Assembly: GCF_019599145.1 (NCBI RefSeq)
Contig: NZ_CP080647.1
Span: 7,130,001-7,194,000, forward strand
Direction of reading: 5' to 3'
Length of the DNA: 64,000 nt
DNA from: Streptomyces akebiae
GTDB lineage: Bacteria > Actinomycetota > Actinomycetes > Streptomycetales > Streptomycetaceae
The position numbers and the translations under genes were made by a program. Of this stretch, positions 22,131-48,056 are shown piece after piece (position 1 is the stretch's first letter; every line of letters begins with the position of its first letter). The notes beneath the pieces are model-generated. The model saw nothing but the letters and a program-made list of their open reading frames with translations, had not been told where the DNA came from and did not search any database.

Positions 22131-23725
22131 CTTGCTTGTCGGGCGGAGTGCCCGGTCCTCCAGGGCTGAGGTGAATGCCCGTTCCCGCGTAGCGGGGCAG
22201 GGGAATGCCGGATCGCCGTCAGGGTGGTTCGGCGTCTGGGGAGGGACAACGGGTGGGGGTCGGCCGCAACCGTTCGTGGTGTCGGCGGGTCGGGGCCCTG
22301 TGGTTGGGGTTGTTGCCCTGGAAGGGATGAGTGTGCCGGTCACTCTCATGGGTGATGTGAGTCGAAGGGGTGCGCGGTGGGGGAACGGGGTGTCTAGTTT
22401 CGTGGCATGTCTCGTTTCCGGATGTATCCGTCGCTCGCGCAGGCCGAGCGGATGCTCACGCATTGCGCGCACGCGCGGTACGTGTGGAATCTTGCCGTCG
22501 AGCAGCACGCGTACTGGATGCCGGGTCGCAGGTCCGCGCCCGGTTTCGCGGAGCAGTGCCGTCAGCTGACCGAGGTCCGGCGGGAGAACGAGTGGCTGGG
22601 TTCGGGGAACGCGGATGTGCAGCAGCAGGCGTTGAAGGACTTCGCCCGGGCCAAGAGTTCCCGGTTCACGTCCGGGTTCGGTGAGCCGACCTGGCGCAGG
22701 AAGCACGTGCACGAGGGCTTTCGGGTCATCGGCACCGACCGCGTGCCGGAATATCACGTGGACGGGTCGCCGAAGGTGAACGCGAAGACCGGCAGGCAGG
22801 TCATGGGCCGCTCGGTGGTCGTGCAGAGGTTGAACCGGCGCTGGGCGCAGGTGAAGGTGCCCGGCTGCGGCTGGGTCCGCTTCCGCCTCAGCGCCAAGGG
22901 CAACGGGGCGCAGTTGCCGGAGGCGAAGACGTTCAGGGTCACCTTCCGCAACGGGCAGTGGCACATCGCCTTCGCCGTCATCCCCGACCCGGTCCCGGCG
23001 CCCGGCACGGATACGGTGATCGGCGTCGACCGGGGTGTCACGATCACCGCCGCCCTCTCCGACGGCCGGAGGCTGAACTGCCCCCAGCTCACCGTCAAGG
23101 AACGCGCCCGGATCCGCAAGCACCAGCGGCGGGCGGCCAGGGCCCCGAAAGGCAGCCCCGCCAAAGCGGCCGAGCGTGCGAAGGTGGCCGGGCTCAGGGC
23201 GCGGGAGGCGAACCGGCGCAAGGACTGGTGCGAGAAGACCAGCACCATGCTCGCCCGCTCCTACGGCCTGATCCGGTTCGAAAAGCTGAACATCAAGACG
23301 ATGACCCGCTCCGCGAAGGGAACCGTGGAGCAGCCCGGCAGTGGGGTGGCGCAGAAGTCCGGCCTGAACCGGGCGATCCTCGCCCAGGGCTGGGGCCTGC
23401 TGCGGCAGCGCACCGGGCACAAGGCCCCCGGCCGGGTCGAGGACGTTCCCGCCCCCTACACCAGCCTGCGGTGCAGTGCCTGTGGGTGGATCGACAAGAA
23501 CTCGCGCAAGAGCCAAGCCGGGTTCGTCTGTTCCTCCTGTGGCTTCACCTGCAACGCGGATACCAATGCGAGTATCAACGTCGCGGCAGGACAGGGCGGG
23601 ATCTTCCGCCCCCGGCGGACAGCCGGTGCCGGAGGGACGACACCGCCCAACCACCGGTCGAGCGTCCGTGAACCTCAACCCATATGGGTTGGAATCCCCC
23701 TCTTTTAAGAGGGGGAGGATGTCAA
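22131..23725 (+). mobile_element. IS605/IS1341-type transposon carrying only tnpB
   Basis: The ends are set by rejoining the interrupted acetyltransferase: left flank ...CACGTCCAC, right flank AACACGATC. The left end carries small hairpins (22140-22154 CGGGC-GGAGT-GCCCG and 22184-22196 CCCGC-GTA-GCGGG). The right end carries CAACCCATATGGGTTG (23676-23691) and a 9-bp hairpin at 23696-23715, then GGAGGATGTCAA. Subterminal hairpins, no terminal inverted repeats and no target duplication are hallmarks of IS200/IS605 elements. There is no Y1 transposase (tnpA), so movement would need one in trans. Confidence 0.88.
22407..23708 (+). CDS. tnpB: TnpB, RNA-guided nuclease of an IS605-type element
   Basis: This is a 433-aa OMEGA effector. 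The N-terminal half is the TnpB helix-turn-helix/WED region. The RuvC catalytic residues are all present: Asp208 in GVDRGV, Glu292 in RFEKLNIK and Asp385 in CNADTNAS. Between the last two lies the zinc ribbon CSACGWIDKN...CSSCGF. TnpB proteins bind an omega-RNA made from the element's right end and cut DNA that matches the guide next to a transposon-adjacent motif. The gene is intact and its stop codon lies inside the right-end hairpin, so message and omega-RNA overlap. The last 50 residues are extended by right-end sequence. It starts with ATG at 22407. Confidence 0.92.
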   Translation: MSRFRMYPSLAQAERMLTHCAHARYVWNLAVEQHAYWMPGRRSAPGFAEQCRQLTEVRRENEWLGSGNADVQQQALKDFARAKSSRFTSGFGEPTWRRKHVHEGFRVIGTDRVPEYHVDGSPKVNAKTGRQVMGRSVVVQRLNRRWAQVKVPGCGWVRFRLSAKGNGAQLPEAKTFRVTFRNGQWHIAFAVIPDPVPAPGTDTVIGVDRGVTITAALSDGRRLNCPQLTVKERARIRKHQRRAARAPKGSPAKAAERAKVAGLRAREANRRKDWCEKTSTMLARSYGLIRFEKLNIKTMTRSAKGTVEQPGSGVAQKSGLNRAILAQGWGLLRQRTGHKAPGRVEDVPAPYTSLRCSACGWIDKNSRKSQAGFVCSSCGFTCNADTNASINVAAGQGGIFRPRRTAGAGGTTPPNHRSSVREPQPIWVGIPLF

Positions 23726-25960: not shown

Positions 25961-26243
25961 GCAGGACGCTCCAGCCTCGCGAAGGGACGGGTGGCGGTGC
26001 TGATCCCCCGGCGGCAACGCTCCCGTACGCCCCGGGCTGTGTGCGGAGCCTCGAATCTGACGTGAAGGCATGGTGAAGTCAAGACACGCGTCGGGCATGG
26101 TGCTTGTGGGGTGCGAGCCACACGTACCGCTCCTCTCCCTCCGGGGTGGAGGAGCGCCGACGCGGTTCGTTTCACGGGGTGGGCGGCCGGGAAATGTTCC
26201 GGCAGCGTGTTCTCGGCCCGCGGGCCGAGGGAGGGGGAGCGCT

Positions 26244-27176
26244 GTGTATGACCTGGCACGGGCACCGACCCATGTCCGGGCGCCCGACGGGCGGTTGCTG
26301 AGGGTCGAGTGCTCGGGGGATCCCGCCGGGCGGCCCGTCTTCCTGTTCCACGGCATGCCCGGCAGCCGGGTGGGCCCCCGGCCGCGGCCGATGTTCCTCT
26401 ACCAGCGGGGGACCCGGCTCATCAGCTACGACCGACCGGGGTACGGGGGATCGGACCGCAGACCCGGCCGACGGGTCGTCGACGCCGTCGAGGACGTGAC
26501 CGTCGTCGCCGACGCGCTGGGCCTGGACCGCTTCGCGGTGGTGGGCCGGTCCGGCGGAGCCCCGCACGCCCTGGCCTGCGCCGCACTGCTGCCGCACCGG
26601 GTGACCCGGGCCGCCGCGTTGGTGACGCTCGCGCCGCAGGACGCCGTCGGACTCGACTGGTACGCGGGAATGGCCCCTTCCAACGTCCATGAGTTCCATT
26701 CCGCGCTCACCGACCCCCAGGGCTTCACGGCCCGGCTCATCCCGCGCTCCGCGGCGATCCGCTCCGATCCGGCTCGGCTGCTGGAGCAACTGCGCGACGA
26801 CCTCACCGACGAGGACCGGCTGATCGTCTCCGACAACGGCATCCGCTCGATGCTGCTGCGCAACTACCAGGAGGCAGTGCGCACGTCACCCTACGGATGG
26901 ATCGACGACGCCCTGGCGCTGACCTCCCCCTGGGGGTTCGAGCCCGGCGAGATACAGGTGCCGGTGCTGTTCTGGTACGGCGCGAAGGACGTGTTCTCCC
27001 CGGCGGCCCACTCCTCCTGGCTGGCCGACCGCATCCCCCGCGCCACCGCCGTCCTCGAACCCGCCGCCGCCCATTTCGCCTCGCTGCGTGCCCTGCCGGG
27101 GGTCCTGAGCTGGCTTCTCCGAGGCACACTGCTGCCCCTGGCCCCGCCGGTGAGACCGTCCGGAGCGGCCCCGTGA
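26244..27176 (+). CDS. Alpha/beta hydrolase
   Basis: This is a 310-aa alpha/beta-hydrolase-fold enzyme. The oxyanion segment is VFLFHGMPGSRVG, the nucleophile elbow GRSGGAPHAL (Ser), and the strand LISYDRPGYGGSD precedes it, all standard. The acid is probably Asp in WYGAKDVFSPA, and the His lies near AAAHFASLR. The GTG at 26244 has a GGGGGAG ribosome site about 6 nt upstream; the ORF upstream is not protein-like. It is divergent from the KstD-like gene and convergent with fxsT (8-bp gap). Substrate unknown; a peptidase or esterase are both possible. Confidence 0.85.
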   Translation: MYDLARAPTHVRAPDGRLLRVECSGDPAGRPVFLFHGMPGSRVGPRPRPMFLYQRGTRLISYDRPGYGGSDRRPGRRVVDAVEDVTVVADALGLDRFAVVGRSGGAPHALACAALLPHRVTRAAALVTLAPQDAVGLDWYAGMAPSNVHEFHSALTDPQGFTARLIPRSAAIRSDPARLLEQLRDDLTDEDRLIVSDNGIRSMLLRNYQEAVRTSPYGWIDDALALTSPWGFEPGEIQVPVLFWYGAKDVFSPAAHSSWLADRIPRATAVLEPAAAHFASLRALPGVLSWLLRGTLLPLAPPVRPSGAAP

Positions 27177-27184
27177 AGGAGCCG

Positions 27185-30100
27185 TCACACCGCCAGCGGT
27201 TCCAGGTCGCGGTAGACCCGCCGGCCCTGCGCCACCAGGTGTGAGACACCACTGCCCTCGCCCAACTGGCGTTTGAGCCTGCCCAGTTCGGCAGCCACGT
27301 CCTCGCGCAGCCGGTCCGCCTCCGACACCCGCCCCAGGGCGCGCAGCGTCAGCGAGGAGTTGGCGACCACGGCCAGGGCCTCCGGATGGTGTGCGCCGAG
27401 CACCTCCTTCAGGGCCTCACGGGAGGGCTCCTCCAGGACCCACGCCTCCTCCGCGCGGCCCTGCTCGGCCAGGACGTTGGCGTAGTTGGTGCGGCAGAAG
27501 AGCGTGTGGGGATGCTGGTCGCCCAGCACCTCGACCATGCGGAGCATCACCCGCAGGAACACCGTCTCCGCCTCCTCCGCGTCTCCGCAGGCCCAGTGGT
27601 AGACGCCCAGGTTGTTGAGCGCGGCCTGGGTGTAAGGGTGCTCCTCGCCCGGCACCTTCCGGTACTCGGCCAGCGCCTCCAGCGCGATCCGGCGCGCCTC
27701 CTCCCGCTTGTCGGCGGCGTACAGGTCGGCAGCCAGGTTCAGGTCGCAGGCGAGCGAGTCGGGGGTGTGGGCGTCGTACTGCGCGTGGTACTGGTCGCGG
27801 GTCGCCTGGGTCAGGCGGTGCGCGTCCTTGAACTCGCCGGCCCTTCTGAGCGACACGGCCAGCGACTTGGCGCAGCTGAGAGTGCCGGGGAAGTCCTTGC
27901 CGAGCACGCGCTTGTGAGCCTCGTACGCCCCCGACAGCAGCGTCACCGACTCGGTGTAGTGGCCCACCTCGCGCAGATCCCGGCCGAGACTGGAGGCCGA
28001 CGACAGGGTGTAGGGGTGGTCGGGGCCCAGAACGTCCCTGCGGCGGTGGTAGGTGTCCTGGTCGATGTCCCGGGCGTCGTCGTAGCGCCCGACCATGCGC
28101 AGGGCCAGCGCCAGGTTGTTCGCCGCGCTCAGCGTCCGGGGGTGCGAGGGATAGAAGGTGCGGCTGAACCCCTCGCGTGCCTCGCGGGCCAGCTTCTCCG
28201 CCTTGCCGTACTCGCCCAGGGCCGCGTAGTCGCTGGCGAGGGACGACGTGGTGATGTACGTGTGCGCGTCCGACGGTCCCAGCACCCGGCGCTGACGGTC
28301 CAGCAGATCCCGGTCGATCTCCTCGGCCTCGACATAACGCCCTTGCGAGCGGAGCACGTTGGCGAGTTGGCAGCGCAGGTACAGATACTGCCGGTGGTTC
28401 TCGCCCAGTGCGGGCTTCCAGTGGGTCAGCAGGTCGTCGGCGAGGCGCTGGGCGCCCGGGAAGTCCCCGCGCTTCCACATGTACCGGACGCGGTCGATGA
28501 GCAGCCGGCGGGGCTCCGACTCCGTGCAGTTGCGGATGTCCGAGGCGCGCAGATGAGGCCATATCACCTCGAACCGCGGCCAGTCCTCGGGATTGTCGGT
28601 GGGCTCGTCGTCGTCGGGCCGGGCGCCCGCGAGCACGGTGTGGACGACGTGCCGGGCGTGGCGCTGCTCCTCCTCGGTGAGCTGGGACCGGATGACCGCC
28701 TGCACCAGCCGGTGGATCTGGACGCTGTTGCTGACCTGGTCGACCTTGGCGAGGGCGAGCCGGGCGATCTCGCTGACGGCGCGGCCCACCATCAGGCTCT
28801 CCTGGAAGGCCGGGTCCACCTTGCGCAGTTCGTCCCGCATCTCCTTGCTGTAGAGCAGGCGGGACGAAATCGGTTCGGGGGCCATGAACGCGCACAGCTG
28901 CAGCAGCCGCACCGAGGCAGGGGAACGTTCCCGCAGTCGGGCGATGGAGATGTTCCAGGTCGCGGCCACCGTGGTGGGGTAGTCGGGGGGCTGGTTGAGG
29001 TCGAGCACCTGGGTGGTCTGTTCGGCGAGCTCGCTGAGGTACTCCTCGACCGGTGTGGCCGTCTCGGCGAGCCAGGCCGCGGCCTGTTCCACGGCGAGCG
29101 GGAGATCGCCCACCGCCTCCGCCACCCGGTCGGCCTCCTCGGGGCTGAGGCCGGGCGCCCGCAGGGAGAGGTGCTCCACGCTCTCCTGACGGAGGAACAC
29201 GTCGACGGGCAGGGACGCGCCCTGCTGCGCCCAGGCCTGGTTCCGGGAGGTGATGAGAATGTGCCCGCCGCCGCCCGTGGGGAAGAAGCGGGTGAGCTCC
29301 TCGGGGTTGTCGGCGTTGTCGAAGACCAGCAGCCAGCGCTTGGTCGGCACCCCCCGGGCCAGCATGCGTACGGTCTCCTGGCAGGCCAGGGCCATGTCGT
29401 CGCCGCCGGGGGCGCCGATCCGGGCGCCGAGCTCGGCGAGCGAGGCCACCACGTTGTCGATGTGCTCGGCGGAGACCCACCACACCAGGTCGTAGTCGGC
29501 CATGAACCGGTGCACGTACTCCAGCGCCACCTGGGTCTTGCCGACGCCGCCGAGCCCGAAGAGCGCCTGGGGGCGCGGCAGTACGACCGAGATGCCGCCG
29601 CGGAGCTGTTCACGGAGCTGGTCGAGGATCACGCTCCGGCCGGTGAAGGTGGTGTTGCGCTGGGGCGCGTCCCAGATGTCGGGGGCCCGGCCCGGGAACC
29701 TGGCGTCCGACCCGCCGGCGGTCACGGGCTCGGCCCGCAGCCGCAGAACCTCGTGGAGTCCGTCGGCGCCGTCCGCCTCGCCGAGGCGGTGCAGGTCCAC
29801 CACCTCGGTGTAGGCGCCGGTCGGCCGGACCTCGTCGACCCGGGCCAGCGCCGGCAGGGCGGCCGGGGAGTTCTGGACGGCCGTGGTGAGGGCCTGGCGG
29901 ACCGTGTCCGCGTGCCGGGACTTGTCGAAGGCGTGCGACAGCAGGAGCAGGACGCGGGTGTCCGGGGCGGGGGGCTCCGGCGGGCCGGTCGCCACGTCGT
30001 GCAGGGTGACGCGGCAGCCGGACCGTTTGAGTACGCCCTCCACCCACTCGGCCCACATCCGGTTCTCCGCCGCGTGGACCACCAGGACCTCCACGGCCTG

Positions 30101-31123
30101 CGTCTGCGGCAACTGCCGGGTGAACGCCTCCAGGCAGCGCAGCCGCACCTGTTCCGGTACGGGCGGCAGCGCGGTGACCTCGTCGTCGGAGAGCACCGAG
30201 GTGAGGCGTTCGAAGGCGGACAGCAGGGAGTTCGCGTTGCCGCTCTTGTCGCCGACGGTCGCGAGGGTCTCCTCGTAGGCGTAGTAGGGGCGGTAGGGGA
30301 TCTCGACCTTGCCCCAGTACGCGTTCAGCTCCTCGGGCGCCAGCTCCTCACGGTCGACCCCCTTGGGTAACCCCTCGAACTTCAGCCGCGCCAGCGCCCG
30401 TCCCGCGTCGGCCTTCTCCTTCTCGGCCTCGTCGACCCGCATCGGGACGGGCAGCACCCGGATCCACCGCTTGCCGTACCCCTTCTCGGCGCTGTGCGCC
30501 ACGGCGGCCGCGCCGTCCAGCGCCTGGCCGCTGAGCGTGAAGCAGTCGACCAGCACGTCGGGCATCTGGATGGTGCAGATGTCCGCGTTGTCGGACAGCC
30601 CCGTCCGGCTGTCGATGAGGACGTAGTCGTAGGACGCCTTCATGTCCTCGCGGAGGGTGTCCAGGAACAGCCCCCCGCCCAGCCGCTCGTAGAAGTTGTC
30701 CCACTCGAAGGACGACACCGTCGCCGAGTACTCGCGGTTCTGTCGCCCTGCCGACAGGAAGTCGAGCGAACCGCCCGCCGGGAAGGCCAGGTTGAGGCGC
30801 TCGGGGGCGAGCGAGATGGCATGGTCCTCGACGCGGGCGTAGTCCCGGTGCCAGGGTCCGGAACGCGGCCCACCGGTGGTCGCGGCCCAGCAGTACTCGG
30901 TGATGATGTCGATCACGCCCGAGGTGGCGGCGAGCACGTTGGGGTCCAGGAACGGCTCGAAGAAGCGGTGCAGACCCGGCGCCTCCAGGTCCCAGTCGAC
31001 CGTCAGGACCCGCTTGCCGTTCGCGGCGAGGATCCATGCCGTGTTGGCCAGGGCCATCGTGCGGCCCGTACCACCCTTGTACGAATAGAAGGTGATGATC
31101 CGTCCACGCTGCCCGGCCGTCAT
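27185..31123 (-). CDS. fxsT: FxsT: ParA-like/TIR-like/NB-ARC/TPR protein of FxSxx-COOH system
   Basis: This is a 1312-aa multidomain protein. Residues 8-200 form a SIMIBI/ParA-like ATPase with deviant Walker A YSYKGGTGRTMALA. Residues 350-470 look TIR-like (VEVLVVHAAENRMWAEWVEG). Residues 495-880 form an NB-ARC-type STAND ATPase (ALFGLGGVGKTQVALEYVHR near 520; kinase-2 RWLLVFDNADNPEEL). From about 930 to the end there are about ten TPR units with the HPYTL/HPRTLSAANNLAL signature. This composition matches the TPR protein named FxsT in FxSxx-COOH RiPP clusters. The start overlaps the fxsC stop (ATGA) behind a GGAGGAGA ribosome site. The role is unproven; STAND-TPR proteins often sense a ligand and assemble, which suggests signalling or defence. 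Confidence 0.88.
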   Translation of the reverse strand: MTAGQRGRIITFYSYKGGTGRTMALANTAWILAANGKRVLTVDWDLEAPGLHRFFEPFLDPNVLAATSGVIDIITEYCWAATTGGPRSGPWHRDYARVEDHAISLAPERLNLAFPAGGSLDFLSAGRQNREYSATVSSFEWDNFYERLGGGLFLDTLREDMKASYDYVLIDSRTGLSDNADICTIQMPDVLVDCFTLSGQALDGAAAVAHSAEKGYGKRWIRVLPVPMRVDEAEKEKADAGRALARLKFEGLPKGVDREELAPEELNAYWGKVEIPYRPYYAYEETLATVGDKSGNANSLLSAFERLTSVLSDDEVTALPPVPEQVRLRCLEAFTRQLPQTQAVEVLVVHAAENRMWAEWVEGVLKRSGCRVTLHDVATGPPEPPAPDTRVLLLLSHAFDKSRHADTVRQALTTAVQNSPAALPALARVDEVRPTGAYTEVVDLHRLGEADGADGLHEVLRLRAEPVTAGGSDARFPGRAPDIWDAPQRNTTFTGRSVILDQLREQLRGGISVVLPRPQALFGLGGVGKTQVALEYVHRFMADYDLVWWVSAEHIDNVVASLAELGARIGAPGGDDMALACQETVRMLARGVPTKRWLLVFDNADNPEELTRFFPTGGGGHILITSRNQAWAQQGASLPVDVFLRQESVEHLSLRAPGLSPEEADRVAEAVGDLPLAVEQAAAWLAETATPVEEYLSELAEQTTQVLDLNQPPDYPTTVAATWNISIARLRERSPASVRLLQLCAFMAPEPISSRLLYSKEMRDELRKVDPAFQESLMVGRAVSEIARLALAKVDQVSNSVQIHRLVQAVIRSQLTEEEQRHARHVVHTVLAGARPDDDEPTDNPEDWPRFEVIWPHLRASDIRNCTESEPRRLLIDRVRYMWKRGDFPGAQRLADDLLTHWKPALGENHRQYLYLRCQLANVLRSQGRYVEAEEIDRDLLDRQRRVLGPSDAHTYITTSSLASDYAALGEYGKAEKLAREAREGFSRTFYPSHPRTLSAANNLALALRMVGRYDDARDIDQDTYHRRRDVLGPDHPYTLSSASSLGRDLREVGHYTESVTLLSGAYEAHKRVLGKDFPGTLSCAKSLAVSLRRAGEFKDAHRLTQATRDQYHAQYDAHTPDSLACDLNLAADLYAADKREEARRIALEALAEYRKVPGEEHPYTQAALNNLGVYHWACGDAEEAETVFLRVMLRMVEVLGDQHPHTLFCRTNYANVLAEQGRAEEAWVLEEPSREALKEVLGAHHPEALAVVANSSLTLRALGRVSEADRLREDVAAELGRLKRQLGEGSGVSHLVAQGRRVYRDLEPLAV

Positions 31124-32457
31124 GCTTCTCCTCCGTGATCGGAACCCGCGGCGGGCTGCTGCGGGTAGGTGGGGCCCATGAGACGGGGCTGCGGCAACTG
31201 TGGGCCCTCGGGCGGATGCGCCTGCGCGTGCCTGAGGTACTGCCGGGTCGTGTGCGCCGCCAGAGCCGGCAGCACGTCGGCGAACACCTGGAGCGAGGGC
31301 ACGCCGTTGGCCGCGATCCGGCAGTCGGTCCGGCGCCCCCGCTCCAGGATCAGGGGGAGGGTGCGTTCCAGCTTCGCCTTGACCTGTCGTCCTTCCGCGC
31401 CTTGGCACTCCTCGTCGCTGTGGTTCCAGGGGACGATCGCGCCGACCCAGGGGCGGGCGTTCGCGTCGAACGCCTTGAGCCTGCGCCGCCGGTCCTCGTC
31501 GAGGACCGCCCAGCAGTCGACCAGCAGGATCGCCGGGTGGCCGGGCTCGGGCTCCTCGGCCCCGGGGTGTCCGTCGGACCCGCCGGCCGTCGGCTCGTCG
31601 GTGGTCGGGTCCTCGTTGTCGAAGTCGGAGACGGTGATCCGGTAGTCCAGCGACCGGATCAGTTCCTCCGCCAGCGTGGCGATGGGCCGCGGGGTCTCGT
31701 CGCCGTAGGGGTTCCACTGCAGGGAGTTCTCGCCGTAGCGGCCGTTCTTCCGGGATTCCGGGACCAGGTGACGGGCGGGTGCCGCCACGGTCAGATGGAT
31801 ACGGCGGGGCCCGTCGCCCGGGGGAGCGAAAGCACTCGGCGTGGACTCGAACGGCCGGGGGGTGCTCGACGGAAGCGGCGACTCCTCGGCGACCTGCACG
31901 ATCCGCTGGGCGAGCGTGAACACCGTCTCGTCGTACTCGTCCCGCAGCCGTTTGAGTTTGATCAACCCGTAGATCCCGTGGTCCAGATAGCGCTCGCAGT
32001 ACGCGTTCCGCTCCACCTGGAGGTGGCGCACGGACTCGGGCAGCCGGTCCATGCCGACGCGACTCCACAGCACCGGCACGATCGCCGGGATGTCTCCGGC
32101 GCCGGCGTCCCTCGCCTGGCGTATGCGGTCGCTGAACGCGAACCACTCCCGACCACAGGCCTCGCTGCTGAAGTACCGCGGGGAGTACAGCGGCACGAAC
32201 ACCCGGCAGTGCGCCAGGTTGTCGCTGAGCCGGTCCGGCCAGCCCTCTCCCGAGCGCATCTCCCGGTCCATGAAGCCCGGGGGTGTGCCCGCCGGCAGAT
32301 CGGTGATGGCCAGGATGTCGGCGCACAGGTCCTTGTAGAGCGTGTACACCCAGTGGTCCGGGTCCCCGCTGTCGGGTCCGGAGGGAGTGTGGGCATAGCT
32401 CAGAAAGAAGTAGGGCCGGTTGTCCGGTGCGCCTCGCCCTCGTACATGTCTGTTCAC
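31120..32457 (-). CDS. fxsC: FxsC, TIR-like protein of FxSxx-COOH system
   Basis: This is a 445-aa protein. The N-terminal 190 residues form a TIR-like domain that begins RPYFFLSYAHTPSG and contains FVPLYSPRYFSSEACGREWF, as in FxsC proteins of FxSxx-COOH clusters. A Pro/Ser linker (about 200-225) leads to a C-terminal domain of unknown fold with HPAILLVDCWAVLDEDRRRR and WVGAIVPWNHSDEE. It starts at GTG 32457. It is coupled to fxsT by ATGA overlap and is preceded by 111 bp after the AAC(3) gene, where no hairpin was noticed. Whether the TIR-like domain has NADase activity is unknown. Confidence 0.87.
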   Translation of the reverse strand: MNRHVRGRGAPDNRPYFFLSYAHTPSGPDSGDPDHWVYTLYKDLCADILAITDLPAGTPPGFMDREMRSGEGWPDRLSDNLAHCRVFVPLYSPRYFSSEACGREWFAFSDRIRQARDAGAGDIPAIVPVLWSRVGMDRLPESVRHLQVERNAYCERYLDHGIYGLIKLKRLRDEYDETVFTLAQRIVQVAEESPLPSSTPRPFESTPSAFAPPGDGPRRIHLTVAAPARHLVPESRKNGRYGENSLQWNPYGDETPRPIATLAEELIRSLDYRITVSDFDNEDPTTDEPTAGGSDGHPGAEEPEPGHPAILLVDCWAVLDEDRRRRLKAFDANARPWVGAIVPWNHSDEECQGAEGRQVKAKLERTLPLILERGRRTDCRIAANGVPSLQVFADVLPALAAHTTRQYLRHAQAHPPEGPQLPQPRLMGPTYPQQPAAGSDHGGEA

Positions 32458-32568
32458 GCGCCCCCCGCCTGTCGATGCCCTCTGTTCCCCCGCCGGAGAG
32501 TCATCTGGCCGGAACCAACAATGTGCCCGACCACCCCCGTGACCGCATGGCTTGTTTCACGTCATATG

Positions 32569-33351
32569 TCAGCGATATCCGGACATCAGTCGGGCTGCGG
32601 TGTCGACAGCGGCCCGCATCCCCAGGAGGAGGACGGGCTTCCCCGCCCATTCCCGCACCCTGAGGAGTTCTCGCGGCAACTGCGCCCCGATCTCCCCGAA
32701 GTCCCCGTCGAACAGGGCGAGATCCTCGTACGCGAACCAGTTGCCCTTCTCCTCCAGCACACAGCGGTACGTCCGTGTCGGCGGGGGCGGGCTGGTCCGG
32801 TACTCGGCGAGGTGGAACGCGGTGCACACCTCGAACCCCACGCGCAGCAGGAGTATCTGGGCGTCCGCCGCGTACAGCGTGGCCATCGGGGACCGCTCGC
32901 CGAGATGGCAGCGCGGATCGTGGCCGGCGAGCAGCTCCGCCGCGCGCGGGCCGAGTGCGGCGAAGGAGGTCTGCGGGTGGGCGCTGCGCACGGCCCCCGG
33001 TGTGCTGCGTACGCACTCGGCGAGCGCGCCCATCGCCGGGCAGGGTGTGGCGTCCTTCTCGAACGGCAGCATTCCGGCCCGGAACTCGGCCTTCTCCCGC
33101 TCGGTCATGCCTTCGGTGAACGCCTGGTACTCGCGGGAGGTGTCGGAGTTCTCCGGGGTGAAGGCGGGGACGACGAGGGTGCCGTCCGGGCCCAGGGCGC
33201 TCAGCAGCGCGTCGCGTACGGCGAAGGGGGACAGGCCGGTGCCGCTCAGCGAGGAGTGCACCATCAGGACGCCGCCACGGCGGACGCCCCACTCGGCCAG
33301 GTCGTCGGGAAATCGGGCCGCGAGGTCCTGCGGTCGAGTGGCGTCACCCAT
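32569..33351 (-). CDS. AAC(3)-family N-acetyltransferase within the FxSxx cluster
   Basis: This is a 260-aa member of the aminoglycoside 3-N-acetyltransferase fold: GGVLMVHSSLSGTGL, PDGTLVVPAFTPENSDTSRE, RSAHPQTSFAALGP, YAADAQILLLRVGFEVCTAF and HLAEYR, all in family order. AAC(3)-like genes recur beside fxsB, so it may acetylate the modified peptide or another cluster product rather than an antibiotic. That is inference; resistance cannot be concluded. The 8-bp overlap with the fxsB end supports a shared transcript. Confidence 0.85.
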   Translation of the reverse strand: MGDATRPQDLAARFPDDLAEWGVRRGGVLMVHSSLSGTGLSPFAVRDALLSALGPDGTLVVPAFTPENSDTSREYQAFTEGMTEREKAEFRAGMLPFEKDATPCPAMGALAECVRSTPGAVRSAHPQTSFAALGPRAAELLAGHDPRCHLGERSPMATLYAADAQILLLRVGFEVCTAFHLAEYRTSPPPPTRTYRCVLEEKGNWFAYEDLALFDGDFGEIGAQLPRELLRVREWAGKPVLLLGMRAAVDTAARLMSGYR

Positions 33352-35506
33352 GCAGCGTCACCCATTCTCTTCGTAGTTCCTCTGCCAAGTGAACTCCACT
33401 CTCGGTGAGTTGGGCATCCGGCAGAGCGGTGAGCCGGTCCAGGGTGTGGCGGGCGTGGAGCAGTTCCTCGGCGCGGGCGGCCCGGTCGGTCGACACGGTT
33501 GCCCGGCCGATGGCCTCGCTCGCCTCGTCCAGGAGGCGTCCGGCGCCGGTGCCGGGCACGTTCAGGTCCGCGACCTGGCGCAGGGCGGCGAGCCTGGACC
33601 GCCGTAGCAACCGCGGCAGTTCGCGGGCCAGTTCCTCGGGCTCGAAGTCGACGGCCACCCCCAGGGCACCCGGTGTGTCCGTTCCCGGCAGGAGCCCGGC
33701 GCCCGCCGCGAGGGGGGTGATCGTGGTGCAGAGGGACGCGTCCGGGACCGGCCGCCGACTCGGCTCGCGCTCGTCCTGCGGGTCGTACGCGGCGCGCAGT
33801 CGCTTGCCGAAGAGCGCCAGGTCGTCGGCGCTCAGCGGGGCCGCTACCGGCACCGGGTAACAGTCGCGGTACGGGTCGGCGTCGTCGATGAGGAGCGGCG
33901 GCCGGCCCGTGAGTTCCACCGGCGTCAACGGGCGCCACTCGACGCGCAGTTCGCCGCCGTCGCGGTCCGTTCCGGTCGCCCGGAGGCCGTCCGCCGTGAT
34001 CGCGCACTCGACCCGCCCGGGCGCCGAGAGGCGCAGCGTCCCGAGGGTCGGGAGGTACAGGTCCCGGTGCGGCTGCCACCAGGTGAGGGTGGCTTCCGTC
34101 TCCGCGAGTACGGCGGCCGCCACGGCGGTCGCCGTCAGCCGGGGGAGGTCGGCGTGACCCTCCAGAGCACGCACCAGCACGGTACGCAGATACGGGTGGG
34201 CGAGAACGGTCTCCAGGTGGGCCGCCGTGGCGGCGTCGGAGTCCAGTTCGACCAGGAGCCCCCAGGTCGCGTCCCAGTCCCCGTGCCCGGACAGTGCGGC
34301 GTTCGCCCGGGCCAACAGGTTCCGATTGAGCTCGACGTGGGCCAGCCGGAGGTCCTCGGTGTCCGTGACCGCCGGGTGCAGCTCGCGCTCGGTGATCCGC
34401 TCGGCGATGCCCTCGACCAGGCCGCGCAGGTCGGCGCAGAACACGGAGGGGTTGTCGAAGCCGCGCTCGCCGCTGTAGCGGTGGGCGTAGAGACCACCGC
34501 CGCAGGACTCCACGACCGGGCAGCGACGGCAGGTCTCGCTGACGCCCGCGATGCCCAGCTGGCGGGCCCGGACGCCGGGGTGCTCGGCGAACTCCGCGAA
34601 GCCGTGCCGGAAGACGTCGTAGCCGGTGGCGGGTGCGCCCTCGTACGCGGTCTTGAGGGAGTCGGCCTGCTCGAAGGTGCCGTCGGTCTCGATCACCGCC
34701 AGGTCCGACGGGGCGAGCCCCAGCGCCTCCGTCAGGCTGGGACCGCCGCGCAGGGTGCTGAGCACCGAGTCGAACGTCCTGACCGGCATGGGGCGGCCCT
34801 GCTCCTCCCAGCGGTCGAAGATCTTCAGCAGCCAGTCGGCGTAGGGCGTTCCCCGGCCGTGTCCGGGAGGGGGGCTGTCCCACGTCGAATGCGGGAGGAG
34901 GTAGTCGACGCGGGGCGGTTCGAGGGCGGTCAGCGCGTCGTGCACCGCGACCGGATCGTTGGCCACGTCCACGGTGCACAGCAGGCCCTGGAAGAGGTGC
35001 CGGTACTCCGGCAGGCGCAGGAGCCCGATCGCCCGCAGCACCCGGTCGTAGCTGCTGCGGCCTCGGCGGTCCAGCCGGTGCCGGTCGTTCGCCACCCGGT
35101 CACCGTCGAGTGAGATTCCGACCTTCACGCCGAATTCCCGGAAGACTTCCAGGTGCCGCTTGTTCAGTTGTACGCCATTCGTGTGAATGCGCAGGTCCAA
35201 TGTCGTGACCGGCGCCAATACACGGGTGAGTTCCGCACACATGTGCCGCAGCCGGGCCGGACCGGCGAGAAGCGGTTCTCCGCCGTGCAGAATCACGGCG
35301 ACGGATTCCAGTTCGCTGTCGGCCGCGTATTCCGCGAGGCGGCGGGCCACCTGGCCGAGGGTCTCCTCGGTGATCACCACCGGCCGCCCACGCCAGCTCT
35401 GGTCGGCGTGTTCGTACACATAGCAGTGGTCGCATGCCAGGTCGCAGCGGCTGTGCACCTTGAGGACCAGTTGCTGGATCGATCGCTGGCCGCGGAAGTC
35501 CGTCAC
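33344..35506 (-). CDS. fxsB: FxsB, radical SAM/SPASM maturase
   Basis: This is a 720-aa maturase for the FxsA peptide. The N-terminal radical SAM domain has the iron-sulfur motif CDLACDHC (Cys21, Cys25, Cys28 from the GTG start), followed by YVYEHADQSWRGRPVVI and the GGEP motif in ILHGGEPLL. A SPASM-like cluster follows at about 300-345 (CRRCPVVESCGGG, then a Cys in FCADL). The C-terminal 350 residues are the large family-specific extension. Such enzymes join ring carbons of aromatic residues to neighbouring side chains, forming cyclophanes. The GTG at 35506 is chosen because family members begin just before QLVLKVHSRC, and the TTG alternative at 35575 lies inside a stem-loop. Confidence 0.9.
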   Translation of the reverse strand: MTDFRGQRSIQQLVLKVHSRCDLACDHCYVYEHADQSWRGRPVVITEETLGQVARRLAEYAADSELESVAVILHGGEPLLAGPARLRHMCAELTRVLAPVTTLDLRIHTNGVQLNKRHLEVFREFGVKVGISLDGDRVANDRHRLDRRGRSSYDRVLRAIGLLRLPEYRHLFQGLLCTVDVANDPVAVHDALTALEPPRVDYLLPHSTWDSPPPGHGRGTPYADWLLKIFDRWEEQGRPMPVRTFDSVLSTLRGGPSLTEALGLAPSDLAVIETDGTFEQADSLKTAYEGAPATGYDVFRHGFAEFAEHPGVRARQLGIAGVSETCRRCPVVESCGGGLYAHRYSGERGFDNPSVFCADLRGLVEGIAERITERELHPAVTDTEDLRLAHVELNRNLLARANAALSGHGDWDATWGLLVELDSDAATAAHLETVLAHPYLRTVLVRALEGHADLPRLTATAVAAAVLAETEATLTWWQPHRDLYLPTLGTLRLSAPGRVECAITADGLRATGTDRDGGELRVEWRPLTPVELTGRPPLLIDDADPYRDCYPVPVAAPLSADDLALFGKRLRAAYDPQDEREPSRRPVPDASLCTTITPLAAGAGLLPGTDTPGALGVAVDFEPEELARELPRLLRRSRLAALRQVADLNVPGTGAGRLLDEASEAIGRATVSTDRAARAEELLHARHTLDRLTALPDAQLTESGVHLAEELRREWVTLHG

Positions 35507-35549
35507 TTTCCCGGAGTGTACGCGCCGACGGAACCCGTGGCGGCGGCGA

Positions 35550-35590
35550 GAGACCCCAACACCCTTGTTGATCAAGGAAGTTGGGGTCTC
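35550..35590 (-). terminator. Stem-loop between fxsA and fxsB, probable attenuator
   Basis: GAGACCCCAAC (35550-35560) pairs perfectly with GTTGGGGTCTC (35580-35590). Inside, CCTTG (35563-35567) pairs with CAAGG (35573-35577). It sits 17 bp after the precursor's stop codon and 43 bp before the maturase start. Partial termination here would give more precursor than maturase, a common arrangement in RiPP operons. Confidence 0.7.
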
Positions 35591-35607
35591 GGTGTCGTGC
35601 TCGGGAG

Positions 35608-35790
35608 CTAGATGGACGAGTTGAACTCGCTCGCTCCGGCGGGGCGCGACTCGCGAACCTCGGTCACCCGACCGGTGAACCGCTGGACGCGGGGCTCACG
35701 CGTGTCGATCGTCGCGAGTGTGGCCGTCCGCTCGGTAGCCGGTCGTGTCGCGCCCGGTCGGCGGATTGGCTTCGTGCCCGGAACGTTCAT
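35608..35790 (-). CDS. fxsA: FxsA, FxSxx-COOH RiPP precursor peptide
   Basis: This is a 60-aa precursor that ends EFNSSI, matching the FxSxx-COOH rule (Phe-Asn-Ser-Ser-Ile at the free C-terminus). The leader is basic and Thr/Arg-rich (MNVPGTKPIRRPGATRPATE), then RTATLATIDTREPRVQRF. FxsB is expected to crosslink the terminal Phe to a nearby residue. The ATG at 35790 has a GGAGG ribosome site about 11 nt upstream and gives the usual 55-65 aa length; the frame extends to 35910 but that part is not leader-like. It is first in the leftward cluster and divergent from the SLATT-type gene. Confidence 0.88.
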   Translation of the reverse strand: MNVPGTKPIRRPGATRPATERTATLATIDTREPRVQRFTGRVTEVRESRPAGASEFNSSI

Positions 35791-36048
35791 GGATTTCTCG
35801 TCCTCCTCAAGAGACCAATGCGTCATCAGCCCCTTGCCGACGAGATCCCGTGGCGAGGGCCTGGTCATTGAGGTTCGGACGACACTGTAGGGCATGGTTC
35901 TATCATGCACGCCCTATACCACGCACGCCTCCCACGGTAAAGGGTGCCTGTCCTCCGTCGTGTTCCCCGACAGGCGGCCTGGCGTGAATTCAAGATTGAC
36001 GAGAGCATGACCGTTCCGTTGATTCCCCGGCATCCGTATGAGGTCTGC

Positions 36049-36963
36049 ATGGCTGCGACGCCCGGCCCCAGCACTACGGTGAGTGATCGAGATCTGCCCC
36101 CGTTGTTCCAGGTGTGCGATGAGAAGGCGGTGACCCATCAGGGTGAGTCGTTCAAGGTCGTCCGTCTGCAACTGGTCGCCCTGCTGCTCGCGACCGCCAC
36201 CGCCTCACTCGCGGAGCGGGTCGGCAGTCGGGTGCCCTCGGCCGTCGCGGCCGTGCTGTACGCCCTGACCATAGGGATCGGCGTCTATGTGTCCCGTCGC
36301 CGTGCGCGGGCACAGTGGCAGGCTCACAGGGCGGCGGCCGAGGTGGTCAAGTCGCTGGCCTGGCAGTTCATGGTCCACGGCGGACCGTTCCCCTCACGGC
36401 TCGTCAACCCCGAGGCACGGTTCGCCGAACGGCTGGAGGAGCGGCTCAGCGAACTGCGCAAGGTGGGGTGGGAGGACCCGCGCGAGTCCGTCACCGAACT
36501 CGGGCTCGGGCAGATCACGCCGACGATGCGTACGGTGCGCGCCAAGGCCTTCGCGGCGCGGCGCGACATCTATCTCCGCGACCGGGTTCTGAACCAGCTG
36601 GCGTGGTACGGCGGCAAGGCCGGGCAGGCGCACCAGGCGTCCGTACGCTGGTCGGGCGTCACCACCACCCTCACCGCGCTGGCCCTGGTCACCGCCGTGG
36701 CCCGGGCCTCAGGTGTCATCGGCAGCCGCTGGGACCCGACCGGGGTCCTCAGCGCCGCCGCCGCGGCCGGTGTCGCCTGGCAGGAGGTACGACGGCACCG
36801 CCCGTTGACGTACGCGCACAAGCTCGTCGAACAGGATCTGGACACCCTGCGCGTCACCATGACCACCACCGTCACCGAGGACGGGTGGGCCGACGCGGTC
36901 GCGGAGGCGGAGCGGCTGGTCTCGCCGCAGCACACGGACTGGCTGGTGCGGTTCGGGACCTGA
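36049..36963 (+). CDS. SLATT/DUF4231-type membrane protein
   Basis: This is a 304-aa protein with two N-terminal membrane helices (VVRLQLVALLLATATASL and SAVAAVLYALTIGIGVYVS), a soluble helical middle, two more helices (GVTTTLTALALVTAVARASG and VLSAAAAAGVAWQEV) and a helical tail. This 2TM-soluble-2TM layout is that of SLATT/DUF4231 proteins, proposed pore-forming effectors paired with nucleotide-sensing SLOG proteins. ATG 36049 has GAGG 5 nt upstream; 36007 and 35944 are alternatives. It diverges from the fxsA operon and converges, 29 bp apart, on a SLOG-like gene, so the pairing is suggestive. Confidence 0.72.
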   Translation: MAATPGPSTTVSDRDLPPLFQVCDEKAVTHQGESFKVVRLQLVALLLATATASLAERVGSRVPSAVAAVLYALTIGIGVYVSRRRARAQWQAHRAAAEVVKSLAWQFMVHGGPFPSRLVNPEARFAERLEERLSELRKVGWEDPRESVTELGLGQITPTMRTVRAKAFAARRDIYLRDRVLNQLAWYGGKAGQAHQASVRWSGVTTTLTALALVTAVARASGVIGSRWDPTGVLSAAAAAGVAWQEVRRHRPLTYAHKLVEQDLDTLRVTMTTTVTEDGWADAVAEAERLVSPQHTDWLVRFGT

Positions 36964-36992: not shown

Positions 36993-37484
36993 TCAGGCGC
37001 GGCGTACGCCCGGACTCCACAGCACCGTCACCGGGACGCCCGTGAGACGTGCGTAGTCGACGATGTCGGCCGTGCCGCCCCGGCCGCGGGCGGGGGCGCC
37101 GTCCCAGACGGCGATCATGCGGTCGGTGTGGTCGACGATGTAGCGGCCGGCGGCGTAGTACGCCTCCTCGTGGGTGCGTTCGTACGGCAGTTGCTCGCGT
37201 GCGGCGCAGCATTTGAGGAGACGGCGGTAGGCGGCGCGGACCTGGTCGTCGCCGAGGTGGGTCTCGTAGTCCATGCCGGGGATGACGGCGGTCAGTTGCA
37301 GGCCGCTCTCCAGGGCGATCTCCGCGAAGAGCTGGTCGGCGCCGGCGGCGAGGCTGCTGAGGGCCCGGGTGGTGGAGGGGCGACCGCGCAACTCCGCCCG
37401 GATGCCCGAGCGGACGGCGGACAGGGCGGCTTCCGGGATCTCCCGGTGTCCGGTGATACCGATCCGGGTCACGGGCCCTGGCAT
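36993..37484 (-). CDS. SLOG-like (Rossmannoid nucleotide-sensor) protein
   Basis: This is a 163-aa protein starting RIGITGHREI, then RALSSLAAGADQLFAEIALE, AVIPGMDYETHLGDDQ, YIVDHTDRMIAVWDGAPARG and GGTADIVDYARLTG. The GITGH, LAAGAD and VWDG strings are the usual binding-site loops of the SLOG/LOG-like superfamily, which bind or cleave nucleotide-derived messengers. ATG 37484 follows GGAGGTGAGC. It converges on the SLATT-type gene (29-bp gap), a pair described in predicted nucleotide-signal conflict systems. A general LOG-like hydrolase is the alternative. Confidence 0.72.
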   Translation of the reverse strand: MPGPVTRIGITGHREIPEAALSAVRSGIRAELRGRPSTTRALSSLAAGADQLFAEIALESGLQLTAVIPGMDYETHLGDDQVRAAYRRLLKCCAAREQLPYERTHEEAYYAAGRYIVDHTDRMIAVWDGAPARGRGGTADIVDYARLTGVPVTVLWSPGVRRA

Positions 37485-37758
37485 CCGTGCGCTCACCTCC
37501 GTGGCCGTGTTCCTCCAAGTAACCCTAGCGGCGGGGGACTTCGGCGAGAACGACACGTACGGGTGTTCGGTGAGGCGTCACGGGCTCACAGGCTCACGGG
37601 GGCGACCGCGAGGAGACCGTCGTGGTGGCGACCGCCCTCGCGTGCCCCGGGTGCCGCCACTCGCGGGCATGTTCGGAGAAGTGTTCGTAGGGGTGGCGGC
37701 GAGGCGGCCTCGGACGCGGGCCGGTCCGGGCGCGCCGGGGCGACCGCGGGCGCGTCGG

Positions 37759-38879: not shown

Positions 38880-39121
38880 CGGGGGGTGGGAGCCGGGTGC
38901 CTGTCGGGTGGGCCGGGTGGGGGTGCGGCCGGACGGGTGGTTCGGGGCGTGTCGACGGCGGGGGAGGTGCTGTCGGACGGTAAGGGGAGGTGGTTTCGGA
39001 CGGTGGATGAGGTGAGGGCCGGACGGGGGTGAGATGGGGCCGGACGGGGTGAGGTGAGGCCGGACGTCCGTGAGGTGGGGCGGGCGTCAGTCGGGTGGGG
39101 CTGGGCGTCAGTCGGGTGGGG
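38880..39121 (+). repeat. G-rich strand-asymmetric region with short direct repeats
   Basis: The plus strand has very many GGG/GGGG runs and almost no C runs. Repeated units include GGCCGGACGGGG (about 39018-39048) and the 19-mer GGGCGTCAGTCGGGTGGGG at 39082-39100 and 39103-39121, the second crossing the carboxyltransferase stop codon. No gene is credible here. The G-skew and spacing could support G-quadruplexes near the end of the mat-like operon. Confidence 0.6.
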
Positions 39122-40474
39122 ATGGCGTCGCGGGTTCGACGATCCCCCGTACGACGCCCAGCTCCACCAGGTCCTGCGGTCGTACCCGCAGTTCGTCCGC
39201 TGTGGCCCGGGCCAGGGTCTCCGGCCGCTTCAGGATCGCGGCCGCCAGTTCCGGGGCGATCACCGAGAAGTAGGAGTCGGGGGTGGCCCAGGTGCGGGCC
39301 GGGGCCGCGAGGGCGAGGGCTCCGCCGGAGCCGCCCTCGCCGATGAGGAGGGTGGTGACGGGGGTGCGGGCGGTGGCGACGGTGGTGAAGAGGGCGGCGA
39401 TGGCGGGGCCCGCGCCCTCGCGTTCGGCGTCGGCGTCGTTCGCGGCGCCGGGGGTGTCGACCAGGGTCAGGACGGGGATGCCGAGGCGGTCGGCGAGGCG
39501 GATGAGGCGGGTGGCGGTGCGGTAGCCGGCCGGGCGGGTCGGGGTGCCGCACTGGGCCGCGTAGGCGACGGTGCGGCCCTCGTGATCGCCGAAGCCGCAG
39601 AGCATGCCGGGGTCGGTGCCGCCGGCACGGTCACCGCTGAGGGGTGCGCGGCGGGTGAAGTAGGCGTCCAGGTAGGCCTCGGCCCGGGGGCGGTGGGGGG
39701 AGCGGGCGCGTTGCACGGCTTCCCAGCCGGTGGCGGGGAGGGGTGCTTCAGGGGGCGGGGGCCCCGGAGCGCGTGAGGCGGGGGCGCGGGGTCCGTGGAA
39801 GGGCTGGTCAGGAGAGACAGCCACAGGGACAGGGTGTCGCGCAGGTCGTCCGGGTGGACCACCGCGTCCACGGAGCCCGCCGTGACCTGGGAGTCCGCCG
39901 TGTACGCCGCGGGGTCCGCGTCCGGGGGGCGGACGCGGGAGCCGGCGAAGCCGATCTGGGTGGCGGGGAGGGCCAGGGTGATGTCGGCGCCGGCGCCGAG
40001 GGTGGCCCAGCCCCCGCCGGTCGTCGGGTCACGGAGGACCGCGATCTGGGGCAGGCCCGCCGCGTTCGTCAGCGCCGACTCGCGGGCCACACGCTGGAGT
40101 TGGGTGAGGGCGCGCATGCCCTCCTGCATACGGCTGCCACCCGTCGCGACGACGGAGACGACCGGCAGGCGGTGGGCGCGGGCGTAGGTGTGCGCCGCCT
40201 CCAGACGGTCGCCGGTGCGTTCGCCCAGCGAGCCGCCCAGGAAGCCGAACTCGAAGGAGATCAGCACGGCCTGAGCGGTGCCGATCGTCGCGCGGCCCCA
40301 CACCACCGACTCCTCCTCGCCGGTGCGCTCGGCGGCGCGGGCCCGTGCGGAGTCGTAGCCCTGCCAGGCGAGGGGACCGTCGGGGGCGTAGTCCCGTCGT
40401 GGGGTGGGGAGTTCGGTGAAGTCGTCGGTCAGGGCGGCGATGGCTTCGCGGGCCGAGAGGCGGCGGTCGGTCAT
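39108..40474 (-). pseudogene. Fused acyl-CoA carboxyltransferase (AccD/AccA-like), one-base frameshift
   Basis: The 5' part reads as an AccD-like carboxyltransferase half (IGTAQAVLISFEFGFLGGSL, then GGSRMQEGMRALTQLQR). The 3' part reads as an AccA-like half (AAQCGTPTRPAGYRTATRLI, then LVDTPGAAN and IGEGGSGGALALAAP). The two lie in different frames; 1,367 nt is one short of a multiple of three, and the break lies in a C-rich run near 39740-39800. If the missing base is an assembly error the protein would be about 455 aa and intact. It overlaps the upstream matB-like gene by 4 bp. It may carboxylate or decarboxylate malonyl-type CoA thioesters; inference from context. Confidence 0.8.
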
Positions 40475-41952: not shown

Positions 41953-41965
41953 GTTCTGGTACTCC

Positions 41966-42031
41966 TCGGTCGTCGGTCGTCGGTCGTCGGTCGTCGGTCG
42001 GTCATTGGTCATTGGTCGTCGGTCGTCGTAG
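41966..42031. repeat. 7-bp tandem repeat between matC-like and matB-like genes
   Basis: CGGTCGT (with TTGGTCAT variants) is repeated about eight times just upstream of the matB-like ribosome site. It would lie in the message leader; copy-number change could alter spacing or expression. Confidence 0.8.
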
Positions 42032-42088
42032 TTCGAGGTGCCGCACTGCCCTTGGGGTCACCTTGATTCACGGGGCTCCCCGGTGGGG

Positions 42089-43486: not shown

Positions 43487-43588
43487 ACGGGCTCCCGTCG
43501 TTGGGTCCCGGAGCGGCAGAGGGGGAGAGGAGGGGGAGAGTCTGACAACTGGGCGAGTGATGTGGGCGAGTGGAGTGGGCGAGTGGTC

Positions 43589-43605
43589 AAGTGGCTGAGC
43601 CACTT
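43589..43605. promoter_or_regulatory. 17-bp palindrome in matC-GntR divergent region, candidate GntR operator
   Basis: AAGTGGCT-G-AGCCACTT is a perfect 8+1+8 palindrome. A related half, TGGTTCAGCCACT, occurs at 43661-43673. Both lie between the divergent carrier and regulator genes. The surrounding GTGGGCGAGTG direct repeats (43550-43585) may be extra half sites. Confidence 0.6.
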
Positions 43606-47910: not shown

Positions 47911-48056
47911 CCACGACGGCGGCCCCGCCACCCTCCCGGCCCCGCACCCTCCCCTCACCCGAAGAGGCGGGAAATCCACGAAGCGGGCGTCCCGCCCGTG
48001 CCCGCTGCCTACCCTTCGGGGTTACAACAGCGCGTACGGGAACCACAACTGAGGGC

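Follow-up and report, generated by a model that had tools for sequence, protein, structure and literature searches.

An FxSxx-COOH peptide cluster of Streptomyces akebiae with SLATT, SLOG-like and AAC(3)-like partners as a candidate intracellular signalling module

Described FxSxx-COOH systems and the S. akebiae cluster

The FxSxx-COOH systems form a known family of ribosomally synthesised and post-translationally modified peptide (RiPP) clusters, which is covered in NCBIfam by the models TIGR04268, TIGR04269, NF040588, TIGR04276 and NF040586. They also appear among the standalone peptide-processing systems of Kaur et al. (eLife 2020, PMC7159879), where an FxSxx peptide accompanies a radical S-adenosylmethionine (SAM)/SPASM enzyme, an AP-ATPase-TPR protein with an inactive MinD/ParA-like domain and a TIR protein; the peptide was proposed as toxin or signal and the zincin-like partner was taken for a peptidase (section 24). 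In this study, we analysed a new member of this family, the fxs cluster of Streptomyces akebiae, within a 64,000-nucleotide stretch of its 10.5-Mb genome (contig NZ_CP080647.1, positions 7,130,001 to 7,194,000; hereafter the window).

The initial annotation of the window had described five leftward genes as an FxSxx-COOH cyclophane RiPP cluster, and this filing was right: all five were recovered on the minus strand with the same boundaries, the precursor ends in F-x-S-x-x, and FxsB (TIGR04269, 597 bits, cut-off 370), FxsC (NF040588, 228 bits, cut-off 130; TIGR04276, 153 bits, cut-off 55) and FxsT (NF040586, 1025 bits, cut-off 300) match the family models far above their thresholds. The features it had read from the translations were confirmed as well, namely a CxxxCxxC radical SAM/SPASM enzyme (CDLACDHC in FxsB), an AAC(3)-like protein, a TIR domain in FxsC and the ParA, NB-ARC and TPR parts of FxsT. 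The overlapping gene ends that it reported hold at two of four junctions (fxsB/AAC(3)-like, 8 bp; fxsC/fxsT, 4 bp), whereas gaps of 101 bp and 111 bp separate fxsA from fxsB and the AAC(3)-like gene from fxsC. The locus departs from the NCBIfam description in three respects: FxsA falls under the curated cut-off, FxsB has lost its HExxH motif (the form modelled as NF040587), and AAC(3)-like, SLATT, SLOG-like and hydrolase genes are added, none of which the consulted texts connect with FxSxx. What the initial account lacked was the hydrolase gene on the downstream side and, upstream, the genes for the SLATT and SLOG-like proteins.

The gene content, the conservation of the motif, the co-inheritance of the genes and the recurrence of SLATT/SLOG-like, hydrolase and AAC(3)-like partners are firmly established. 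As for function, we tentatively favour an intracellular, peptide-controlled signalling module of TIR and NOD-like receptor (NLR)-like proteins that would act through the SLOG-like and SLATT proteins. FxsB, judging by its family and by MscB, which we take to belong to that family, would close a three-residue Phe-Ser cyclophane over the F-N-S at the FxsA C-terminus, and the AAC(3)-fold enzyme may acylate an amine other than any conserved FxsA lysine, either the peptide alpha-amine or a small molecule. FxsT, as a STAND-type receptor, would recognise the modified and probably unexported peptide by its invariable FxSxx carboxyl terminus and would then release or restrain the TIR enzyme FxsC. Its motif and fold suggest that FxsC may cleave NAD+ or make a nucleotide signal; the SLOG-like protein would sense or process that signal, and the two-transmembrane (2TM) SLATT protein would open a pore, stopping or killing the hypha. 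The hydrolase might, at a guess, trim the peptide or end the signal. Such a predicted TIR-made nucleotide signal for a membrane effector recalls Thoeris (TIR plus ThsA) and the nucleotide-signal pairs of SLOG and SLATT proteins; unlike Thoeris, the window system adds a peptide and an NLR-like receptor.

For comparison, FxsC was sought in 200 Streptomyces genomes, with a match in 80 and an above-cut-off match in 71. All above-cut-off places outside the S. akebiae genome (91 after merging of neighbours) and nine of the regions below cut-off, the remaining sub-threshold matches being left out, gave 100 regions; together with 15 earlier loci they made 115 loci whose genes were mapped. FxsB, FxsC and FxsT occur together in 89 of them, FxsC and FxsT without FxsB in 11, FxsC alone in 11, FxsB and FxsC at a contig end in one, and other arrangements in three. 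Several loci are near-identical, so counts across loci are not independent. A class-level search of 187 genomes (match in 41, above cut-off in 21) yielded 20 further regions, which were kept apart from the 89. FxsB itself exceeded its cut-off in 127 of the 200 Streptomyces genomes by profile search. The S. akebiae genome holds seven FxsB proteins above cut-off and five FxsB-FxsC-FxsT systems. Another fxs system of this genome (L019/L020) has two FxsB genes flanking FxsC-FxsT, and one precursor candidate there, ending FESSIDFEAPMR, overlaps fxsB.

Precursor, probable cyclophane synthase and AAC(3)-like enzyme

FxsA scored 15.9 bits against TIGR04268, below the cut-off of 28, which is an annotation criterion and not a biological one; the alignment covered profile positions 6-44 of 44, that is, it ran to the end of the model. 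Among seven close homologues, four are named 'hypothetical protein' (three from named organisms, one from JGI) and the others are unnamed or likewise hypothetical. In FxsB-bearing loci, 76 of 548 small open reading frames (ORFs) around the FxsB start (the 900 bp ahead of its mechanical start and the first 450 bp after it) end in F.S.., compared with 17 of 9,728 elsewhere, so the F-x-S-x-x precursor is real and exceeds chance. The initial annotation had held that homologues dropping the terminal FxSxx would speak against its assignment. For the most part the motif is kept: an exact candidate was found in 78 of the 89 loci and a variant (FxS plus three residues, or WxSxx) in six, while no precursor was found in five. 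Of the 78 exact candidates, 53 have A and 19 have S at position -2, and 75 have L, I or V at position -1. Under a loose pattern, 58 of all 84 candidates contain an LxxI[D]-type leader element. One of the 78, the FPSPT candidate of locus L021, is a chance match, and the likely precursor there ends in FASALL. A hairpin in the fxsA-fxsB gap (Table 1) is possibly an attenuator or a transcript-end stabiliser; strong hairpins 3' of fxsA also occur in L025 and L026, and stems of at least 12 pairs were found after fxsA in 12 of 78 loci, nine of which belong to the window's clade, compared with 6 of 252 control stretches.

The radical SAM/SPASM domain of FxsB aligns with the proven cyclophane synthase ChlB (9gm3) at 290 bits, which links the window system to the triceptides and to ChlB and ChlBH as the consulted parts of PMC11002830 and PMC12636437 present them. 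MscB, as described there, joins Phe C4 to Ser Cbeta. The C-terminal HExxH-type domain of FxsB has lost its motif, RRSRL standing in place of the homologues' HEFQH, and among 73 long FxsB proteins the motif is kept in nine and lost in 64. This sets the window protein apart from ChlBH, whose HExxH domain is described in the consulted part of PMC12636437 as an alpha-ketoglutarate-dependent hydroxylase, and from the systems of PMC7159879, in which the zincin-type domain, degenerate here, would cleave peptides. Because the motif is lost, neither hydroxylation nor peptide cleavage is expected of this domain in the window system.

The AAC(3)-like gene is present and intact in 46 of the 89 loci, lies on the fxsB strand in 44 of them and is mostly placed between fxsB and fxsC. 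The AAC(3) family is known mainly for resistance. The window protein belongs to Antibiotic_NAT and carries an HPxxS motif; its best match to the NCBI aminoglycoside-acetyltransferase models reached 108.5 bits, far below their cut-off of 270. Its closest solved relative was FrbF (3sma; 155 bits), the N-acetyltransferase of FR-900098 biosynthesis, and proteins named aminoglycoside N3-acetyltransferase scored 99 bits. His125, His180, Glu183 and Cys197 are invariant in all 46 homologues. The gene is found on the fxsB strand in one of nine loci with HExxH against 40 of 64 long ones without it, the loci being related; on this split, the tailoring step of the hydroxylase may have passed to the AAC(3)-like enzyme.

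SLATT and SLOG-like partners, hydrolase and chromosomal site

The SLATT protein, encoded divergently from fxsA, matches SLATT_3 (PF18184, 163 bits) and SLATT_1 (PF18181, 132 bits) well above the cut-offs of 26.3. Above-cut-off SLATT_3 matches numbered 67 in the 200 genomes, and 53 of them lie within 12 kb of FxsC, where 0.25 would be expected for genomes of 8.5 Mb. SLATT accompanies 59 of the 89 loci: upstream and divergent in 46, downstream and co-directional in 11, the latter because fxs is inverted between the hydrolase and SLATT genes, and in overlapping long ORFs in two. It also adjoins fxs elsewhere on the FxsT tree (L143, L149) and in two loci with short FxsB genes that are not placed on that tree (L203, L205), and two further SLATT genes lie beside FxsB on short contigs (L182, L183). 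In the part of PMC7159879 considered here, SLATT is placed with GTPase systems and not with FxSxx.

The SLOG-like gene is convergent with SLATT. Of the 59 SLATT-bearing loci, 58 contain it, the exception being L149, and none of the 30 SLATT-less loci does. The gene product has 438 homologues; of 33 homologues, 11 gave weak matches to YAcAr (best E 0.0029), 8 to DprA and 4 to YpsA, which are all SLOG-type families, with every match below cut-off, and the best SLOG-type match of the window protein itself is DNA_processg_A (E 0.099). In PADLOC neither protein gave a match to a named system, SLATT reaching E 0.015 with a 2TM 'Effector' and the SLOG-like protein E 0.039 with ShosA.

On the other side of the cluster, an alpha/beta hydrolase gene adjoins fxs in 73 of the 89 loci and, counted over genomic places, lies close to FxsC at 68 of 84. 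The same neighbour recurs beside the paralogous system L018 and, in other families of the class, beside the fxs genes of L188, L189, L194 and L199; its match to an S33 aminopeptidase model suggests that it could be a leader protease.

Judged by their outer genes, 15 loci, including the window, share one chromosomal site, and a second site is common to 40 loci. Since these genes are shared within each clade, the locus is inherited in place, which counts against a freely moving defence island. The sole outer gene common to the window and the second group is the SLOG-like gene, and between clades the whole set has moved as one to a different chromosomal place. No mobile gene was found inside the fxs block. 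About 3.5 kb from the cluster there is an IS605 OrfB/TnpB-like gene with a Cas12f1-like TNB domain, which had no match at E 1e-20 in the other compared loci, whose flanks differ in reach. A group of genes that by appearance serves malonate uptake and malonyl-CoA formation lies beyond the SLOG-like gene, and some of these genes serve as markers of the site that the window's clade occupies on the chromosome.

Table 1. Features of the cluster and its surroundings (window positions)
Feature	Position	Strand	Remarks
LuxR-type regulator, large, with AAA/TPR parts, flanking the cluster	11797-14772	-	one of two
MFS (major facilitator superfamily) gene	19515-21149		
IS605 OrfB/TnpB-like gene	22407-23708	+	
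Alpha/beta hydrolase, convergent with fxsT	26070..27176	+	Abhydrolase_1 72 bits; S33 aminopeptidase model 33.6 bits
fxsT, 1312 aa: ParA-like (variant P-loop KGGTGRT), weak TIR-like, NB-ARC ATPase (GLGGVGKT), TPR array	27185..31123	-	NF040586
fxsC, 445 aa: TIR domain and Rossmann/flavodoxin-like C-terminal domain	31120..32457	-	NF040588, TIGR04276
AAC(3)-fold (Antibiotic_NAT) acyltransferase, 260 aa, HPQTSF motif	32569..33351	-	PF02522 219 bits
fxsB (FxsBH form), 720 aa, radical SAM/SPASM cyclophane synthase by family	33344..35506	-	TIGR04269
Hairpin GAGACCCCAAC...GTTGGGGTCTC, fxsA-fxsB gap	35550..35590	-	z -5.6; no U tract
fxsA precursor, 60 aa, ending AGASEFNSSI	35608..35790	-	AGGAGG ribosome site upstream
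Imperfect inverted repeat TAGGGCGTGCATG..CATGCCCTA, fxsA-SLATT intergenic region	35888-35916	-	possible operator
SLATT_3/SLATT_1 2TM effector-type protein, divergent from fxsA	36007..36963	+	start 36007 or 36049; mechanical ORF from 35944
SLOG-like protein, 187 aa, GITGHR...GADQLFAE, convergent with SLATT	36993..37556	-	weak family matches
Carboxyltransferase subunits, AMP-binding enzyme, MatC-type carrier	39108-43603	-	malonate-type group
LuxR-type regulator, large, with AAA/TPR parts, flanking the cluster	47802-50594	+	one of two
AftD-type arabinofuranosyltransferase, 1504 aa	56881-61395	-	

The FxsC-FxsT core and competing readings

FxsC carries an invariant Glu104 in its TIR fold at the place of the catalytic Glu, and the TIR part of FxsT is weak (24 bits, under the Pfam cut-off of 28). 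A TIR gene adjoins FxsC in four of the 11 loci that have FxsC and FxsT and lack FxsB (L112, L127, L128, L132), and in two of these, L112 and L127, ThsA-Macro also adjoins FxsC, making them possibly Thoeris-like systems with an NLR-like receptor. ThsA-Macro occurs at only 32 sites in 22 of the 200 genomes, so two FxsC adjacencies are very unlikely by chance, although two is a small number; in the S. akebiae genome there was no match to ThsA-Macro, the one ThsA type searched. As to the other peptide-free pairs, four are damaged, partial or weak (L120, L141, L154, L155), one lies at a contig end (L115) and two have an AAA/SAV_2336 part (L136, L148). In 10 of the 11 FxsC-only loci (all except L158) an AAA gene precedes an FxsC protein that bears a SAV_2336-type domain, an arrangement recognised by profile match in L031, L071 and L133 and by tblastn in the others; L071 has FxsT-like TPRs as well. 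Both the AAA/SAV_2336-fused FxsC proteins and the peptide-free loci fit the conflict-system view of PMC7159879. No MoxR AAA or vWA/VMAP genes were seen among the 19 neighbouring frames scanned in part of the window.

These contexts argue for the peptide as an internal signal rather than an antibiotic, because FxsC and FxsT are reused without it next to TIR, ThsA-Macro or AAA genes and because a SLOG-like/SLATT pair is adjacent; the SLOG-like partner and the second chromosomal site further strengthen the signalling module. The suggestion of a signal in the initial annotation is thus supported by gene context, whereas the possible leader protease and the MFS gene 6 kb off the cluster point the other way. 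A bolder version, which we consider speculative and rather improbable, has the cyclophane peptide serve inside the cell as the specific ligand, or as guard peptide, of an NLR-like receptor driving the TIR enzyme and a SLOG-SLATT pore, with an FxsC/FxsT core that would take interchangeable inputs (cyclised peptide, TIR plus ThsA-Macro, or MoxR-type complexes). Since its synthesis needs SAM and a reduced Fe-S enzyme, loss of the peptide in infection or stress could itself be the trigger.

Several results weigh against the module as proposed. First, in the SLATT protein only two hydrophobic segments exceed a simple threshold, and weakly; the SLOG assignment is weak and no PDB structure matched; and the C-terminal domain of FxsC matched no clear family. 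Second, SLATT is absent from 30 of the 89 loci, including the HExxH-bearing L017 and L018 of the S. akebiae genome, and is therefore not obligatory, while SLATT and SLOG-like genes occur without fxs within about 9 kb in L179, L180 and L181, where they form a stand-alone two-gene pair. Third, the matches are not independent, as the site is inherited within each clade; the link of FxsC to ThsA-Macro comes from two loci, and the TIR gene was seen in only four of 11 peptide-free pairs. Furthermore, a PADLOC scan of FxsB, the AAC(3)-like protein, FxsC and FxsT gave no convincing named system, its matches to pVip (32 bits) and PDC-M28B (76 bits) being partial domains.

The main rival, unlikely yet the best placed of the alternatives, is a resident developmental or stress regulator, in which the same circuit of peptide, FxsT and FxsC would steer hyphal growth or differentiation instead of immunity. 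A fixed, inherited site, as indicated by the outer genes shared within the groups of 15 and 40 loci, and a block interior free of mobile genes are what it would lead one to expect; however, the set changed site between clades, the five systems of the S. akebiae genome resemble a repertoire, and neighbourhoods with SLATT, SLOG-like, TIR, ThsA-Macro or MoxR-type genes belong to conflict systems.

It is doubtful that a plain fxsABCT cluster merely happens to have AAC(3)-like, SLATT/SLOG-like and hydrolase genes as bystanders, an explanation compatible with the other readings. Such a role would account for their absence from 43, 30 and 16 of the 89 loci, respectively, and for the SLATT/SLOG-like pair that occurs alone, and the linkage is in part shared descent. 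Yet the AAC(3)-like gene mostly keeps its place between fxsB and fxsC and retains its four invariant residues, the SLATT linkage is far above expectation and is kept at different sites, and the hydrolase recurs beside paralogous and distant systems.

More improbable still is that the peptide itself is a toxic effector, restrained until a signal comes from FxsT/FxsC, which is one of the two options in PMC7159879 and would suit a C-terminal motif kept while the remainder varies. TIR, together with SLATT where present, already provides effectors, and the peptide is missing where FxsC and FxsT pair with other partners.

The least likely reading of all is a secreted RiPP of antibiotic or bacteriocin-like kind, for which the AAC(3)-like enzyme would give self-protection and SLATT would be the immunity protein: it draws on the small precursor with a modifying enzyme, the chiefly resistance-related repute of AAC(3), a hydrolase that could be a leader peptidase and the MFS gene, but only three compared loci share the latter, the AAC(3)-like protein is nearest to FrbF and far from the aminoglycoside models, FxsC and FxsT are found without a peptide, and no dedicated exporter was seen among the scanned neighbours, exporters not having been sought systematically.

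In the open-licence literature, to which our search extended while subscription papers lay outside it, no link of FxSxx to SLATT, AAC(3) or Thoeris was found. The neighbourhoods described here give a testable pathway of peptide, receptor, TIR enzyme, SLOG-like sensor and pore. If it holds, an AAC(3)-like gene found in a cluster of this kind is no ground for inferring aminoglycoside resistance, and RiPP chemistry would be part of immune-type signalling, beyond the making of antibiotics.
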